Assembly: GCA_947044365.1 (NCBI GenBank)
Contig: OX345650.1
Span: 4,149,372-4,213,371, forward strand
Length of the DNA: 64,000 nucleotides
Direction: 5' to 3'
Source: Petrosia ficiformis
Lineage: Eukaryota; Porifera; Demospongiae; Haplosclerida; Petrosiidae
The position numbers were made by a program, and so were the translations under genes. How positions within the stretch are numbered: the first letter of the stretch is position 1; each line of letters opens with the position of its first letter. Shown piece by piece: positions 26,103 to 64,000 of this stretch. Under the pieces are notes generated by a model. The model was not told the origin of the DNA. It made no database searches and saw only the letters and a list, made by a program, of their open reading frames with translations.

Positions 26103-27186
26103 CATTATTATTATCCAGTATCTTCCACAACATTACGTAATGTTGACTTTACCACCAGAAAATGTTTTCCAAATTTTACAACACAAGGACTCATTCTCAG
26201 TAGTATAGACATGAGACTTTGCATGGGTGTGAGGAATTTGGAGTTCACTGATAATTAGAAATTTTGGGCTAATTATATGTACATGTATGTAGCTAACGGA
26301 CTCATTTCCATTTCACATACTGTAGTTTAGGCATGAGCCTTCATGTAAGTGCTGTACTAAAGTTTGGTATACTGATAAATTGTATGCATACACTGTAAGT
26401 TTAGTGTTGTTATTAGGTTCATGACTGGTATGTATAACCGGTATGATATGTACAATACCTGACTTTAAGTTTACATACTGTGATGGTAGCTACAGTGATA
26501 ATCAACTGTACTTCTATATAGTACTATAGTACTACTTTGTACTGTAATCATAGTAATGTGTTAATTCCTTTTGCATTTGTATGTGATAGCATAGTACTAA
26601 GGTGTAGTACATTTGAAGTACAGTGTACTTCACTCACAATGTACACTATAGTTAATGGAAGTACAGAGATAGTATGTAAACATAATAATGTCAGGTATGT
26701 ATGTGGACTACAACAGTATGAGTATTGTATGTTCAGTGATATACATAACATTAATATACTGTCCTTATACCTGGAGCTGCATCACTACACCTATACCGAT
26801 CAGAGTGGGGAATAACAGTGCTCCAGTGCTCATTTGAGCACCAGATTTTGACATGACAATGCATGCTATAGCTAGTTGTTCTGTGGTGAGCACTGGTGAG
26901 GGAATTGCTCACCAGATGTTGTAGGCTTATTTCTTGCCATGATACTGATACCCCATGATACTGATACATTCATTTATGATAAAATGGACTAAGTAATCTT
27001 TCCAAGACTTTGTATCATAACAAAGATTATGACCTGGGGATGAGGCTATGCACTGTGTACTGGACTATCCAGATATCTACTCTTACACTTTGGGACTCTA
27101 CTAATTAAAAATTTATTTAAAAAAAAGAAATTTCTATCACTATATTATAAAATTTAATCATAATTTGTAAATAGTATCACATGTTT
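25849..27186. other. Intergenic region between convergent LIN9 and TIR-SLOG genes
   Basis: It holds an ATT trinucleotide run at 26066-26115, a family I repeat at 26465-26700, and a minus-strand AATAAA (27112-27117) about 70 bp past the TIR gene stop. No further coding sequence could be supported. Confidence 0.6.
26465..26700. repeat. Dispersed repeat family I, copy 3
   Basis: Long agreement with 7040-7285, including the poly-palindromic AGTACTATAGTACTAC segment. Confidence 0.75.
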
Positions 27187-29625
27187 TTATGTCTGCATTC
27201 TAGTACATGTATTATTCAAAACTTTGATAATGTTCACAACTGAAACAGCAATATCGGATGGCGAGGCTTGTTCATTCTCCAGCATCAACCAATCAGATTC
27301 TTCCACTAGGTCTGGCTTAATGAATATTGTAGCTGGAACACTAAATTTCCCTCCAGCTGCCCCACCAGTGACTTTAATAGGAATCACTGTATGACCACTC
27401 CAGGTGAATTGATGAGCTTCAAAAGCTGCTCCAGGCCCTCCTTCAATCAGCACACACAAGTCAATAACTTTTGGGGTCAACATTTCTCTCTGTCGAATAC
27501 AGGAACAATAGAAAAGGGTTTTTCCGTAAGGCAATGTCTGAAAGGTACCATCACTGTTTTGACGAGTCTGCAATGTACGATCCTGTTCATCTCTGATGGC
27601 TTGAATATGTATTACCCCTTCATCCCAGCCGAGACGTTTTCGTTCATTATAAAAACTAAATCCTACTTCCTCCCCAACACCAAAGAAGCCACCGGTAACA
27701 ATAACCACATCTTTTTCTCTGGCAAGAAATTTACCAAGCTCAGAACAGATTTCCTTGCCTTTAGGAGAATATATCTTGGTCCCTCCAGCTATGTATACTA
27801 ACCGCCCACTAGGTAGATTTTTTGTAAGGTCTGTGCACATTCTGTGGAGCTGAGTTTTCTGTTCAACGAGTTTACGAAGTCTACCTTCAGCTTTGCCTGG
27901 TTGTGTAGCACACTCTACCTCCTCTAAAAGATTGTCATGGAAACTACTCGTTCGAGAATCTAGGAATGTTTCCGTACCAATAAGTGTCGACATCCAGCCT
28001 GGCATATCAATTGAATCCACGATCACTGGAATAATTCTCTTTCTGCCTTCGCAGTAGTACACTTCCTGCTCACACCACTGAGTGCTAGCAAACTCCTGAG
28101 ACAAAACAAAGACAATTGCTCCTGCTTCGTTAACCTTTGTCTTGAAAAGTTGTCGTTTTTGTGGGTCTGTTCCAGCTGTACTTGCCCATACCTCATATCC
28201 ACGCCCTTCCAAATGGGTCTGAATTCCTTCGATGAATTCCATTTGTGCAGGATGATAACTGACCACTACCAACAAAGATGTTCCTTTTGGTTTCATGATA
28301 GTTTTTCGAATCATTTCTGATAGAGATTTTTGTAAACCCCAACCTTTCTGAGGAGATGCTTTTACGGCTTGTTTGGTTGACTCGGACGTTATCTCCTGTG
28401 TCTGTTTTTCCTCAATTTTTTCTTTTTGTTCCTCTTCTCTCTCCATCTGTTCCTTGAATTCTTTCATGGTTTTATATCGCTCTGAAATCTCTGCAGCAAC
28501 TTTTGAAGCAATTGTACGAGGATCAACTTCAATTGACGCATTCTTTCCCCAACGAATATACTGTGTAGTAGCAAACTGTATTGCTAAACACATCGGAGGC
28601 CACTCTGATATGAAAGTAATAGGAACTATATTTTTCTCAAGTGTGTCGGCCAGCTTTACTTCTTTGTTGGTCCATTCTGTGAGACCATATAGGGTACTGA
28701 CTAGAGGTACAAATAGAGCACAATTGTAAACTGCTTCGTTTAGCACATCTTGCCAATCTGTTCCAGGTTTAATGTAGCGTACATCTATAAATACCGAAAA
28801 CCCAAGTCGACCAAGCTCGTCGCACAATAAACTAGCAAACCTGCTTGTTTCTTTGTGTACGTAACTAATCATGATATCAAACGGTTTTAATGTTTGCCGT
28901 GGTAACGAATGACGGTGAGGAAGAGGTGATGGTTGTGGAGAAATAGAGGGTCTAAATTTTGACTGTTCGTTAGATACTGGTTCATCTGATACTGGCGCAA
29001 GATCTTTGGAAATTACTATTGACTGAGGAGGTCTGAGAATATGGGTTCCTTGTAGCTTGATGACATTGTTCGTAACAGTACGTAATGATGAAACTAATGC
29101 CTCTTGACTGCTACTAATAGGCCAGCCATTGTTATCTAAGAAGTGGAATCCATGTTTGCTAAGACTTTCATAAAGAGCCGGATGTTGTTGCTGCAATTGC
29201 TGTCGTAAATTGGTTACTTTGCATGCATCACTTGTAACATGAATGAATCCGATGGGATGCTCATCTTTTCCATTGCTCAGTACTATACCTAAACGAGGTA
29301 GTTTATCTTTGAAACGAACCTTGATCACATCTCCTTCCCAAAGGAGGTACTTTATTCTCACCGTATGCTCCAGGGCTGGATTTATCTCCCACCCATTAGG
29401 GGTGACAAAGACGAATAGCTGCAAATCTTCCTCGGATACGTGAGATAAGGAATCTATCAAGGATTCTCTAAGCTTATTACCCGGATCATTTTCTGAGGAT
29501 ATCTTGAGATTGCACAACAAGTGAGTAGCGTCTGCACTTGTATCCTTTGTATTATAAACTGCTATGATTTTATGATCATCCATTCTTGTAGCTCTGGCTG
29601 GAATGGCAGTTATTTGTTGCTGCAT
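27187..29625 (-). CDS. Intronless TIR-TIR-SLOG protein (putative NAD-linked immune or signalling protein)
   Basis: A single open frame encodes 812 aa; Met15 (29583) is an alternative start. Residues 20-105 and 112-193 are two related segments, each ending in an 'NGW.I' motif (77-81, 166-170). A Pro/Ser linker leads to TIR1 (about 249-380), with 'IMISYVHKE' and 'KNIVPITF.SEWP' much like SARM1. A charged predicted coiled coil spans 383-412. TIR2 covers about 450-570. Glu322 and Glu521 sit four residues after Trp318 and Trp517, the place of SARM1's catalytic Glu. Residues 608-800 form a LOG-like Rossmann domain of the SLOG superfamily, with 'GGT' 614-616, 'VTGGFFGVGEE' 643-653 and 'IEGGPGAAFEA' 727-737. 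TIR domains of this type cleave NAD, and SLOG domains bind nucleotide ligands. Production and sensing in one chain is inference. There is no signal peptide or membrane segment. Neighbouring genes have 5-21 exons. Confidence 0.9.
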   Translation of the reverse strand: MQQQITAIPARATRMDDHKIIAVYNTKDTSADATHLLCNLKISSENDPGNKLRESLIDSLSHVSEEDLQLFVFVTPNGWEINPALEHTVRIKYLLWEGDVIKVRFKDKLPRLGIVLSNGKDEHPIGFIHVTSDACKVTNLRQQLQQQHPALYESLSKHGFHFLDNNGWPISSSQEALVSSLRTVTNNVIKLQGTHILRPPQSIVISKDLAPVSDEPVSNEQSKFRPSISPQPSPLPHRHSLPRQTLKPFDIMISYVHKETSRFASLLCDELGRLGFSVFIDVRYIKPGTDWQDVLNEAVYNCALFVPLVSTLYGLTEWTNKEVKLADTLEKNIVPITFISEWPPMCLAIQFATTQYIRWGKNASIEVDPRTIASKVAAEISERYKTMKEFKEQMEREEEQKEKIEEKQTQEITSESTKQAVKASPQKGWGLQKSLSEMIRKTIMKPKGTSLLVVVSYHPAQMEFIEGIQTHLEGRGYEVWASTAGTDPQKRQLFKTKVNEAGAIVFVLSQEFASTQWCEQEVYYCEGRKRIIPVIVDSIDMPGWMSTLIGTETFLDSRTSSFHDNLLEEVECATQPGKAEGRLRKLVEQKTQLHRMCTDLTKNLPSGRLVYIAGGTKIYSPKGKEICSELGKFLAREKDVVIVTGGFFGVGEEVGFSFYNERKRLGWDEGVIHIQAIRDEQDRTLQTRQNSDGTFQTLPYGKTLFYCSCIRQREMLTPKVIDLCVLIEGGPGAAFEAHQFTWSGHTVIPIKVTGGAAGGKFSVPATIFIKPDLVEESDWLMLENEQASPSDIAVSVVNIIKVLNNTCTRMQT

Positions 29626-29712: not shown

Positions 29713-32700
29713 ATGGCGGCAGCAGCAGAGGGTAGAAAGACGGTTAGTATTGACTACCTTACAGATTATGATCATATGTATGTGTATGTATGTACTTATT
29801 GTTTATTTAGGAGGACATGTCAAGCCCTTGGTCTCTCACTGACCATGGTAAACGAGCTGAAATGAAGCTTAGTAACAACTTGTATGATTTAGAGTTGTGG
29901 GCTATTTTGCTAAGAGAAGCACAGGCAAGACGAACTGTCTCACTGAACCACACCCATATGTGCCTATGAGCCAAGGGGTCCAACTCTGAGACAAATATAA
30001 ATAAGTTATTAAATTAGTATGTAATACATTACAAGAACTACATACCAATGTATTGATTGCCATACCGAATTGATCAGTAGTTTGATGGGATAACCAACAT
30101 TGGGTTTATAGGTAGGGTTGAATATTTAACTTCTCCAGCACTAGCAAAGCCTAAAAGGGTGGTATCATCACACTCCCTCTTCAATATTTATGCTGGAATG
30201 CACTGTTTTAACAACATTGATCGAATGTCATGTACCATTGATGCCTTCATATTTATCCTGAGGGAAACACTGATTAAACTGTCACTTCATTTACACTTTA
30301 CAATAGTCCTATGTTTGTTTATAGAGCCTTAAGAGATGCTAAAAACCTATTCAAAGTTTCTTCTAATAATAGAGCAACATTTTTTTATTTCCGAGAAGGG
30401 ACATTTTATCACAAAATAATTTTGTCAAAACGCTTAGCTTGTATTGTTCTACCATTGTGTACCTAAGAAGCTTAATAATAGCTCTTCCTGGATACCAAAT
30501 TTCATTGACTTCCTGTACAAAAATGGTGGAATAGTGTGCAATTGAAAGCAAGTGTTTCTTCTCAAAACGTAGGCCACATAAAATAATTACATCTTTCTCT
30601 ATAGGGTACCGCTACAGTGAGAGCAAGAATTTTGTACGAACGTCTTGTTAAACAGTTTCCAAATTCAGCTCGCTACTGGCGTTTATATATTGAACAAGAG
30701 GTACTGGATACATTCAGATGGTATTTCCATATTTGGTATATGCAAGTTTTATATTATAAGTATATTCTATTTACTCTGTTTGAGTTACTAGTGGGTGTGG
30801 CTTTTATTAATTTTAACCCTTTATGTCTTGCATGGGTATGTATTTTAAATGGTACTTGTATTATACAAATAAAAGCCGTGAATATAGTTAACAAAAACAA
30901 GATGGGCAAAAAGGGAAAACATGAAATACATGTAATTGGGGAGTGATGAAAAAAAAATGAAATTGAATTGAAATTTTTATGTTTTATGTCGCATTACATT
31001 TTATAAAAACATTCGAACAAAAATTGACACGTATTTATGTACATGAGAATTATAGTAATCACTTGTATGGATACTAATACATTACATCAATTTGTTGGTT
31101 GTCTTCTCTGAACATTTTTGATTAATGAATGCACTTGCAGTTCAGAACCCTTGCCACAAATGGGCTCGCAAAACTCAAATATTATTGAGCTCAGACAATA
31201 ATAATGATAAAAGATAAGAAGATATATAATAATACATAATAATTATGTGTGTTTTACAACCTGCCCTTGTAAGAGTGCTATATAGCTAAGAAGTTCATGT
31301 ACAACATGTAGAAAAACAGTCTCTTGGCTTCAATCACGTGCATGAAATGTTGTAGTAGAATTGTACTTGAATTCAAGCAATGCTTTGACAGCAATAGCCT
31401 TTAAACAAGAGGAGTTGTGTTTCTAACTTTTCCAAATATTCTTTTGCTACCAGAAGTCTCCTGAAAGTGGTGATGTGGTAACTGTGTCTGTTATTATCTA
31501 CTCTTCTTACTTTTTAAAGGATCTTGTAGAACTTTAGGAATATATTTCAGGTAGAATAGATTGCTATTAGTTTCAGTTTCTACGCAAGCTACAAGCATGC
31601 AGCCTTCTTCCTGCTGGTCTGTAGCTCGAGTACACGTTCTTTTATGCATCACGCCCATTAATTGACTCAGACCATCAACTTCCTAAACTACATATACAAC
31701 GCATACTCGCATAAATGACACAAACATATATTAAAATTATATAATTATATACATATAAGTATACATATATTGCATGCATTAAACCCATTAAAAAAATAGG
31801 GAATACACTAATACACACCAATTACATAACCACCTACATGGGTGAGGGTTGATAAAGAACTGCAAAATGTCATGAAATCTAAAAACAGCATCGTAGATTA
31901 CAATTTAAAAAACTACTGTATCTTCTGAATATTCTTATAATTCGGTACTTTGGTCATGTGTCTATCACATGCACATCATGTGTTCTTTCTCCTTCCCTTA
32001 CACTGGTCAACTGACTGTTATTAGATCAAACATCGGAACTACGAACAAGTGGAAAAGGTTTGTAAGAAAAACCTTTTTGATTCATGAAGTGCATGTGCAT
32101 GTTTAGGAAGAAAATGATTAGGAAAAAAAATTTAATTATTAACTTGTGTTCCTGACATTCATCTCCTCCTCCTACTTCTCGAGTTCAGCTCTTCCAAAGA
32201 TGTCTAATGGATATTCTTCATATTGATCTATGGCGATGTTACATTACGTACATTAGAGAAACCAAGGCTCCGTTACCAAACTACAGGTAAGTGTATAGGT
32301 TATACCAACTGTAGACTAACATACACTGCTGAATGACTTGGGGAGTAGTCTTGAGGGAATTTAAAGGAGTAGAGGTTTTTATAATGTAACGACAGACTGT
32401 TAGTGATTCAAACATCATTACCCACTGGTTGTTTCTGGAGTTATGCACGAAGGAGGAACTGTTTATTGTAGTTCAATTCTAACTAGTGTGTTTTCTAGAA
32501 GGCAGAATGTAGGTCAATAGCAGGGATGGAGCTACTGTCTGGTAGTTAGATGCTATATAGGACTTAGTTAGTACCTTGTTAGTACTTCAATTCCAGCCAT
32601 AAATCTACTTTCTGTTTACTGGAAATAGAATGCTTCTTGGGCTTGAACTGTGTGTAAATGTTTCTGGTCAGTTTCAGGTCATGTAACTTTCACAACTATA

Positions 32701-54000: not shown

Positions 54001-56455
54001 AGTGAGTTATACAGGAAACTTATAATTGTCCCAATGCTGTCCGCAATAGAGGGGCTATTGTGGACATCATTGAGACATTTGTAAGTGTCCTTAATACAGG
54101 GGTGTCCTCATTTCAGGGTGTCCTGTTTCACTGTAGTTATTACGGTAAGACTTTCAATTTATTTATAGTTTAATTAACTAAATGTCATAATGCCTTACTG
54201 TTATAGTTAACTAAAACAACACTAAAGTCTGTTCACATTCACGATGACCTCAAAATTAGGATGTAATGACTTTATATGTACTATAGTGTATAGTTTAATA
54301 TCATAAGGTTAATACATGATTATACTGTAACTCAATAATGAAGCAATGGATTGAAATTTGACATACACAAAAAAGAACGGGAAGGATAATTATATGAAAA
54401 TGATGTGGGTAAAAATATTACAAACTACAGTTATGAATATTTTTCTGAGGTCATGGTGAACATGAACAACCTTTAATATGTATATATGTACATTGTATTA
54501 GAAATTGGCACTTTTATCACTAATATTTGTAGGATCGTTATTGGATATTATCAAACATGTGAAGGCTAAAGGTACAAAAGGTGGTGTTATTGATGAGGTT
54601 GTCATAGCAACTGTGCTTCGAGAGGTTGGTCAAGGGTTAGAATATTTCCATGGTAATAGACAAATACACAGGTGAGCAAATTAATTACAGAACTAATCTT
54701 ATGAAATATTGTAGGTACCTTTTACTGTTTGCTGTACGTACAGAAAGCAACCAAAATTTGTTATTTACGAGGAGCTATAGATAGTCTTCCTGAATACAAA
54801 ATTTAGTTTTTTTCCAGTATAAAATTGCAGAACAGTGATCATTGAAATGTTAGCGTTTGTTAAATGATTATTATAATCATAAAAACATATTTTCACAATG
54901 CCAGTCACATTTGTAAATCCTTCACTATTTATTATGAAAAATTGGAGTGACTTCCAAATATGTTGAAAACATGTTATAAACATTTGCAAACATTGATTCT
55001 AATCACTTCCTGGATACCATTAAATACCAGTAATGCTTATTTGAATAATGTTTGAGTTATTAATGAGTTTATTTAATTGATTTGTAATGTACATGTACAT
55101 GTATGTCTTTTAGTGTTTTATTATTTTTATTATAGAGATATTAAAGCTGGTAATGTATTAGTAGGAGATGATGGATCTATTAAAATAGCAGGTGTGTGTA
55201 TGTATGTACATGTATGTATCTGTCTGTCTGTATGTAATGTATTAGTAGGAGATGATGGATCCATTAAAATAGCAGGTGTGTGTATGTACATGTGTGTATC
55301 TGTCTGTCTGTATGTAATGTATTAGTAGGAGATGATGGATCTATTAAAATAGCAGGTGTGTGTATGTATGTACATGTATGTATCTGTCTGTCTGTATGTA
55401 ATGTATTAGTAGGAGATGATGGATCCATTAAAATAGCAGGTGTGTGTATGTATGTACATGTATGTATCTGTCTGTCTGTATGTAATGTATTAGTAGGAGA
55501 TGATGGATCCATTAAAATAGCAGGTGTGTACATGTATATGTGTCTATCAGGTGTGTGTTTGTGTTTATCAATGTGTATGTAATGTTACTACTGTATTAGT
55601 ACATGATAAAATAGCAGGTGTGTGTGTGTGTGTGTGTGTGTTGTTTGTGTATGTACATGTACATGTAATAGAGATGATGGATCTACATCTATTAAAATAT
55701 CTTGTGTGTGTATGTATGTATCTGTCTGTCTGTATGTAATGTATTAGTAGGAGATGATGGTTCTATTAAAATAGCAGGCGTGTGTATGTATGTATCTGTC
55801 TGTCTGCCTGTCTGTCTATATATAATGGGAGATGATGGAATAGCAGGTGTGTGTATGTATGTATCTGTCTGTCTGTATGTAATGTATTATATAGTAGATG
55901 ATGGATCTATTAAAATACATGTAGCAGATGTGTGTGTGTGTCTGTGTCCACACATGTATCTGTGTGTGTGTGTGTCTATGTTTACGTGTCTTGTTGTCTG
56001 CATGTGGTCTATATGTGTATGTCTGTATGTTCATTTGAAATGTTCCATGAATTATCTCAAATATCTATTACACGTACGTACATGTATCAAACCACTTCTC
56101 CTCTAAAGAAATAAGTGATCCCAACACGTTTCACTGATCTTTTATTTTAAATAGATTTTGGTGTCAGTAATTGGCTGTATGGCGAAGCCGGTGCTCACAA
56201 GAAAAGAAATCCTAGATTCACATTTGTTGGTACACCTTGCTGGATGGCTCCTGAGGTAATGGATCAAGCTGTTGGTTATGATGCTAAGGTGGACATTTGG
56301 AGTTTTGGTATTATGGCATTAGAACTGGCCACTGGTACTGCACCCTATGCTAAATTTCCTCCAATGAAGGTCTATAGTCTCTCTCTCTCTCTCTTTCTCT
56401 CTCTGTCCCTTTCTCCCTCCCTTTCCCCTTCTCCCTCCCTTTCTCTCTCTCTATC

Positions 56456-63211: not shown

Positions 63212-64000
63212 ATGGGTGTCTGCAATATCATTTTACTACTGTGTGCAGTCCAAGCCGTGATCAGTCGTCCATATCACCCTATGGTTGCACTTGTTGGAAA
63301 AGTCGTTTGTCCTGGTAGTACGAGTGAATGCCCTGATGGTAATACGTGTTGTAAACTTTCTTCTGGTGAATGGGGTTGCTGTCCTATGAAAAGTGCAGTT
63401 TGTTGCAATGATGGTGAACATTGCTGTCCTGAGGGGTATACATGTGACACTGGTGCTGGTACATGTATAAAGTCAACTTCAATAGTGCCTATGCTTACTA
63501 AACAACCTTCGATAACGAAACAAGTTGGAAATGTAGAGTGTGACGATGGTACGAGTGAATGCCCTGATGGTAATACGTGTTGTAAACTTTCTTCTGGTGA
63601 ATGGGGTTGCTGTCCTATGAAAAGTGCAGTTTGTTGCAATGATGGTGAACATTGCTGTCCTGAGGGGTATACATGTGACACTGGTGCTGGTACATGTATA
63701 AAGTCAACTTCAATAGTGCCTATGCTTACTAAACAACCTTCGATAACGAAACAAGTTGGAAATGTAGAGTGTGACGATGGTACGAGTGAATGCCCTGATG
63801 GTAATACGTGTTGTAAACTTCCTTCTGGTAGCTGGGGCTGTTGTCCAGTCACTCATGCAGTGTGCTGTTCTGATGGTAAGCACTGTTGTCCTGAGGGGTA
63901 TATGTGTGACACTAGTGGTGGTACATGTACAAAGTCAACTTCGATAGTACCTATGCTTACTAAACAACCTTCGATAACGAAACGAGTTGAAAATGTCGTT
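63212..64000 (+). CDS. GRN: Progranulin-like secreted protein, 3' end outside the window
   Basis: One open frame of 263 codons runs to the window edge without a visible intron. A signal peptide (MGVCNIILLLCAVQAVIS) is followed by granulin modules with the full 12-cysteine pattern C-x6-C-x5-CC-x8-CC-x6-CC-x5-CC-x5-C-x6-C. Modules recur every 77 residues (231 bp) with a Thr/Ser/Lys-rich linker. From about 63320 the first and second units look identical base for base. The third differs at many positions, for example 'LPSGSWGCCPVTHAVCC'. Granulins are secreted or lysosomal growth-factor-like modules. An upstream TATA-like box at 63136 fits the start chosen. An antisense frame across the repeats is a shadow. 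Confidence 0.93.
   Translation, partial: MGVCNIILLLCAVQAVISRPYHPMVALVGKVVCPGSTSECPDGNTCCKLSSGEWGCCPMKSAVCCNDGEHCCPEGYTCDTGAGTCIKSTSIVPMLTKQPSITKQVGNVECDDGTSECPDGNTCCKLSSGEWGCCPMKSAVCCNDGEHCCPEGYTCDTGAGTCIKSTSIVPMLTKQPSITKQVGNVECDDGTSECPDGNTCCKLPSGSWGCCPVTHAVCCSDGKHCCPEGYMCDTSGGTCTKSTSIVPMLTKQPSITKRVENVV

Follow-up and report, generated by a model that had tools for sequence, protein, structure and literature searches.

Bacteria are known to read cyclic ADP-ribose signals made by TIR domains through SLOG domains, and animals are known to have TIR NADases such as SARM1. Whether animals too pair a dedicated sensor with TIR-made nicotinamide adenine dinucleotide (NAD) messengers, like bacteria and plants, or employ TIR enzymes only for the destruction of NAD is a long-open question. 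It bears on a gene in a 64,000-nucleotide stretch of the genome of the sponge Petrosia ficiformis (contig OX345650.1, positions 4,149,372 to 4,213,371; the window). This gene encodes two TIR domains followed by a C-terminal domain that is assigned to the SLOG fold and, if functional, would make the question testable in one molecule.

The frame, its TIR domains and its SLOG domain

The original prediction described one uninterrupted 812-residue frame, and we found it intact on the minus strand, running 812 codons from the first ATG without an intron; the plus-strand reading of the same interval contains many stops. The chance of 817 open codons at the base composition of the window is about 1e-26. 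The GC content by codon position (0.51, 0.39 and 0.34) is the pattern of a coding sequence. A search of the whole 191-Mb assembly (29 contigs) gave one full-length match to the protein, and at E <= 1 the SLOG piece and the N-terminus each gave one match. The original prediction did not mention the strand, the N-terminal region of 235 residues or Met15 as a possibly better start.

Both of the predicted TIR domains were observed to score above the curated cut-off of PF13676 (28 bits), with 63.0 bits for TIR1 and 52.9 bits for TIR2. All 17 PDB sequences that match TIR1 at E <= 0.001 are SARM1. When TIR1 is aligned with SARM1, W318-TNK-E322 sits on WVHKE and W342, located 20 residues on, falls on the tryptophan of EWP. 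We take the glutamate of W-x3-E and the EWP tryptophan to be active-site residues of SARM1; a literature search returned no confirmation of these roles, with H685 met solely as an interface residue. Among the NCBIfam models, TIR1 is matched best by Thoeris III ThcB4, with a score one quarter of the cut-off. Matches of TIR2 are weak, with a best E of 8.9e-4 among the ThsB models. Both TIR domains have relatives in the same genome, where 27 TIR_2 matches reach E <= 0.01; of these, 25 exceed the cut-off and two belong to this gene. We also noticed groups of TIR exons with TIR_2 over the cut-off at C16:3924937-3950914 and C13:1419847-1596595, which appear to be clustered expansions.

The C-terminal domain was predicted to be a LOG-like Rossmann domain and is retained here as SLOG-like, on profile matches below cut-off and a predicted fold. 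PF18306 (LDcluster4) matches with E 0.0013 when the whole protein is searched; with the piece, E falls to 8e-5 and the score of 22.7 bits stays below the curated 26.3. The piece is also matched by TIGR00725 at E 3.7e-4, far under its cut-off, and by the LOG protein of Claviceps at E 0.0016. None of six decoys of the region (five shuffles and one reversal) matched a SLOG model, and one of the six matched an unrelated domain of unknown function at E 0.11. The fold comparison that the original prediction had called for found the predicted structure to match LOG (best), ThsA-SLOG and TRPM, with the Moco-carrier proteins as close folds. A separate single-sequence fold of the piece was of low confidence and was rejected (predicted local distance difference test, pLDDT, 34.6; predicted template modelling score, pTM, 0.30). 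From the profiles, the motif register and the modelled structure, residues 607-812 are assigned the SLOG Rossmannoid fold. The glycine motifs claimed at 614-616, 643-653 and 727-737 were located at residues 614-615, 645-653 and 729-732.

A DprA, TRPM or Moco-carrier identity of the domain was not adopted, as no sequence profile names any of them. PADLOC and PHROGs named no SLOG family for it (best PHROGs E 0.2), the STALD profile reached 12.7 bits on the piece against a cut-off of 24, and no LSDAT profile matched the piece. Whole-genome LSDAT_euk and STALD searches were silent, but the controls were silent as well and these searches therefore prove nothing. A GGPGT DNA pattern was found at 109 loci in viral contigs, and a phmmer search with the SLOG piece over 4688 frames from these loci gave none at E <= 10; on our own reading, the 58 frames carrying the motif are chance-like. 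A LOG pattern gave at least 120 loci, and with the query phmmer again returned none at E <= 10 among 2485 frames from these. At least 114 frames from these loci had the motif and at least 103 passed the length and RK filter, from which 17 representatives formed alignment A1. This alignment matched the query at E 0.018 with a probability of 2.6% (controls: TIR1, E 0.45; N-terminus, E 0.065). Alignment A2 consists of 16 of these 17 representatives, three TIGR00725-like proteins by our own reading, and the query.

In alignment A2 the glycine motifs are in register with LOG, and Arg713 and Glu736 occupy the columns of the LOG catalytic residues. They are separated by 23 residues, a spacing equal to that of Arg155 and Glu178 in CgLOGII. 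According to the accessible text of PMC5379747, Arg155 and Glu178 are the catalytic pair of CgLOGII, and activity is lost as well when Lys156 or Thr175 is changed to alanine. The query has Glu714 for the lysine and Ala733 for the threonine. The LOG motif PGGxGTxxE and the RK pair are replaced by EGGPGAAFE and RE, and five of 13 LOG-invariant residues are lost. Because the arginine and glutamate are kept while the lysine and threonine are lost, the domain looks like a ligand binder in which LOG catalysis has probably disappeared. The pocket of ThsA includes Arg371 and Glu403 (PMC7272460, in the part available), and mutation of R371, K388 or E403 altered ThsA regulation (PMC10022894, in the part available).

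Two further loci with LOG-type domains were noticed in the same assembly. A 503-aa host frame (contig C7, about 7224026-7224541) joins what we read as an adenosine deaminase to a LOG-type SLOG domain on its C-terminal side (PF18306 52.1 bits, PF03641 40.7 bits); it is another fusion of a nucleotide enzyme with SLOG in this animal genome. Exons of an apparent classical LOG protein, with GGSDYGLLG and MHTRKKMM, are found at C9:5193855-5196339 (PF03641 35.7 bits).

Table 1. Features of the TIR-TIR-SLOG gene and its surroundings, in window coordinates
Feature	Position	Strand	Basis or remark
Single-exon open frame, 812 aa	27187..29625	-	upstream opening adds 5 codons only, total 817
TIR1 (residues 251-361), SARM1-like	28543..28875	-	PF13676 E 4.8e-17 on piece
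Glu322, aligned with SARM1 catalytic Glu	28660..28662	-	TIR1-SARM1 alignment
TIR2 (residues 453-558), with W517-CEQ-E521	27952..28269	-	PF13676 E 6.3e-14
SLOG domain (residues 607-812)	27190..27807	-	sequence profiles, motif register, fold
Arg713, column of LOG catalytic/ligand Arg	27487..27489	-	alignment A2; role from accessible text of PMC5379747
Glu736, column of LOG catalytic/ligand Glu	27418..27420	-	alignment A2; role from accessible text of PMC5379747
N-terminal half-repeat A (residues 16-105), no known family	29311..29580	-	resemblance to half B
N-terminal half-repeat B (residues 106-200), FxFxxxNGWxI as in half A	29026..29310	-	sequence comparison
Met15, possible true start	29581..29583	-	A at -3, G at +4
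Candidate poly(A) signals past stop: ATTAAA from 27158, AATAAA from 27117	27112..27158	-	motif match only
Candidate start codon, divergent intron-containing CSTF3-like gene	29713..29715	+	own reading of sequence

Proposed mechanism and its alternatives

We give even chances to the protein being a ligand-gated TIR enzyme that processes NAD. On sequence grounds, the same chain may act on NAD and also detect a related small molecule. The SLOG domain would bind an adenine-nucleotide ligand, which could be ADP-ribose, an isomer of cyclic ADP-ribose, NAD or a related metabolite. Binding would then shift the oligomeric state and bring TIR1 and TIR2 together as an active NADase, and the immune or stress output would be either the loss of NAD or a product of the NADase. 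The N-terminal tandem domain would couple the protein to an upstream signal. Two versions can be envisaged, where the ligand is the product of the protein itself (Thoeris-like, in one chain) or a metabolite from outside (SARM1-like).

The original prediction proposed that an NAD-derived signal could be made and sensed within one chain. The architecture and plausible parts for this were found, but the circuit itself is unproven. In such a circuit TIR1, and perhaps TIR2, would make an ADP-ribose-type messenger and the SLOG domain would read this messenger or its precursor, switching the TIR assembly on or off; we hold this only tentatively and think it somewhat unlikely. If true, this would give animals a counterpart of Thoeris with maker and sensor fused or, in a second form, a SARM1-like NADase where SLOG replaces the ARM sensor.

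The main rivals of a ligand-gated NADase concern what the TIR domains do and whether SLOG has enzymatic activity of its own. The TIR domains might be adaptor-like scaffolds and the SLOG domain a nucleotide-regulated oligomerisation switch feeding a TLR/MyD88-like pathway. This would suit the many TIR exons of the genome and the fact that, among solved structures, TIR2 is nearest to the TIRs of TLRs, although the best match is weak (E 0.02). However, TIR1 resembles SARM1 and not TLRs, and the second tryptophan of the SARM1 site is in place. We therefore consider the scaffold unlikely. Alternatively, SLOG could be an N-glycosidase acting on the TIR product or on free nucleotides, to degrade or remodel them, which would make the protein a two-step enzyme. 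Both LOG catalytic residues are kept with the right spacing, and viral SLOGs have been proposed to degrade signals of the cyclic ADP-ribose type (accessible text of PMC9503650). The change of PGGxGT to EGGPGA and the loss of the equivalents of Lys156 and Thr175, each essential in CgLOGII (accessible text of PMC5379747), make a second catalytic step quite improbable.

It might also be argued that SLOG has degenerated to a remnant, or has a structural role only, and that the N-terminal domains drive a TIR protein, since the sequence is divergent and LOG-invariant residues are missing. A domain in decay would sit poorly with a frame that stays open through it, with the retained pocket arginine and glutamate and with glycine motifs still in register, and we give this explanation little credence.

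N-terminal region, gene ends and genomic setting

No match to residues 1-216 was obtained in Pfam, NCBIfam, PHROGs or PDB. Within this region, residues 16-105 and 106-200 resemble two copies of a single unit of about 90 residues and have the motif FxFxxxNGWxI in common. Comparison of the two halves gave p of about 0.01 (2000 shuffles) and a BLASTP E of 0.10, which does no more than suggest a tandem pair of ~90-residue domains (window 28978-29580). Met15 at the head of this region is possibly a better start than the first ATG, as an A at -3 and a G at +4 are favoured in the context of start codons. Past the stop codon, the candidate poly(A) signals prove nothing alone because AATAAA and ATTAAA hexamers are present inside the frame too.

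The window is part of a 5.6-Mb contig (C15). A divergent CSTF3-like gene has its candidate start 87 bp from the first ATG of the TIR-TIR-SLOG gene, so that the 5' side of the latter is bounded to some 87 bp. An exon of this neighbour at 33598-33726 matches CSTF3 (E 4.2e-7); an exon of an OSR1/SPAK-like kinase (E 5.3e-27) and a WD40-repeat frame are also found within the window. The codon choice of the gene follows that of host frames, with a correlation of relative synonymous codon usage (RSCU) of r = 0.82 and a GC content at third positions (GC3) of 0.335 versus 0.292. For the host set we took the 503-aa frame and the stretches between stops that surround 25 TIR exons; these stretches may contain some intron sequence. 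Pattern-based scans of bacterial genomes, which detect close relatives only, found none for the whole protein or the SLOG piece, and pattern scans of viral contigs found no relative. Plasmids gave three matches to the whole protein, all TIR-only, and none to the SLOG piece; phages, searched with the SLOG piece only, gave none.

A gene without introns adjoining an intron-bearing gene might be expected of bacterial contamination, a pseudogene or an assembly artefact. Against this stand the contig and neighbours in which the gene sits, its host-like codon usage, and the outcome of the bacterial, plasmid and phage searches, and we regard such an origin as highly improbable. The TIR-TIR-SLOG gene is an animal gene and not contamination. 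An ancient transfer from bacteria is possible; the codon usage is nevertheless host-like.

Elsewhere in the window, a tandem 231-bp repeat (2.9 copies) was noticed at 63318-63996 within what we read as a cysteine-rich, granulin-like frame. In an 84-bp (164-bp) tandem array at 55150-55839, part of the kinase-coding sequence of the OSR1-like gene is repeated.

Comparison with known systems

Earlier work has brought TIR, DrHyd and SLOG together as relatives among the Rossmannoid domains and describes the coupling of TIR to SLOG in the defence of prokaryotes (PMC9503650, accessible text), and MHR1/2 of TRPM is an animal SLOG (PMC13143021, accessible text). Our literature search found no animal protein reported to fuse TIR directly to SLOG, and an earlier mention in the 2015 paper that defined SLOG is possible. 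The accessible portion of a TIR survey (PMC7075850) does not mention the TIR-TIR-SLOG architecture. Death-domain and TRADD-N expansions are described for the sponge Amphimedon in PMC8195603, where the main text, in the part available, does not contain the word SLOG.

Thoeris uses two proteins with a SIR2 or TM-macro effector, whereas here the TIRs and SLOG lie in one chain, Pfam lists no SIR2 and the SLOG domain is under the STALD cut-off. Inspection by eye of the window frames listed showed no separate TIR signal maker with a SIR2-SLOG or TM-macro effector gene of the Thoeris kind, no SIR2 or macro search having been made. TRPM2, where MHR1/2 is an LSDAT SLOG, is a channel, unlike the query, which also has no LSDAT profile match. 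The LOG phosphoribohydrolases are the best fold matches and share the catalytic arginine and glutamate; the query differs in having lost the active-site lysine and threonine and in being fused to TIRs. LDcluster4 and TIGR00725 are the best sequence-profile matches, below their curated cut-offs, and the Moco-carrier proteins are close folds; unlike the query, all three are presumably free-standing.

SARM1 is gated by nicotinamide mononucleotide (NMN) and NAD. The query differs from it in having two TIRs, a SLOG domain and N-terminal domains of no known family; no ARM or SAM was found, as at E <= 1 the only Pfam entries listed for the full-length protein are TIR_2, TIR and LDcluster4. In turn, the likeness to SARM1 lies in the sequence of TIR1, with its W-x3-E glutamate and EWP tryptophan, and in an animal TIR placed within a multidomain chain that is possibly gated by a metabolite.
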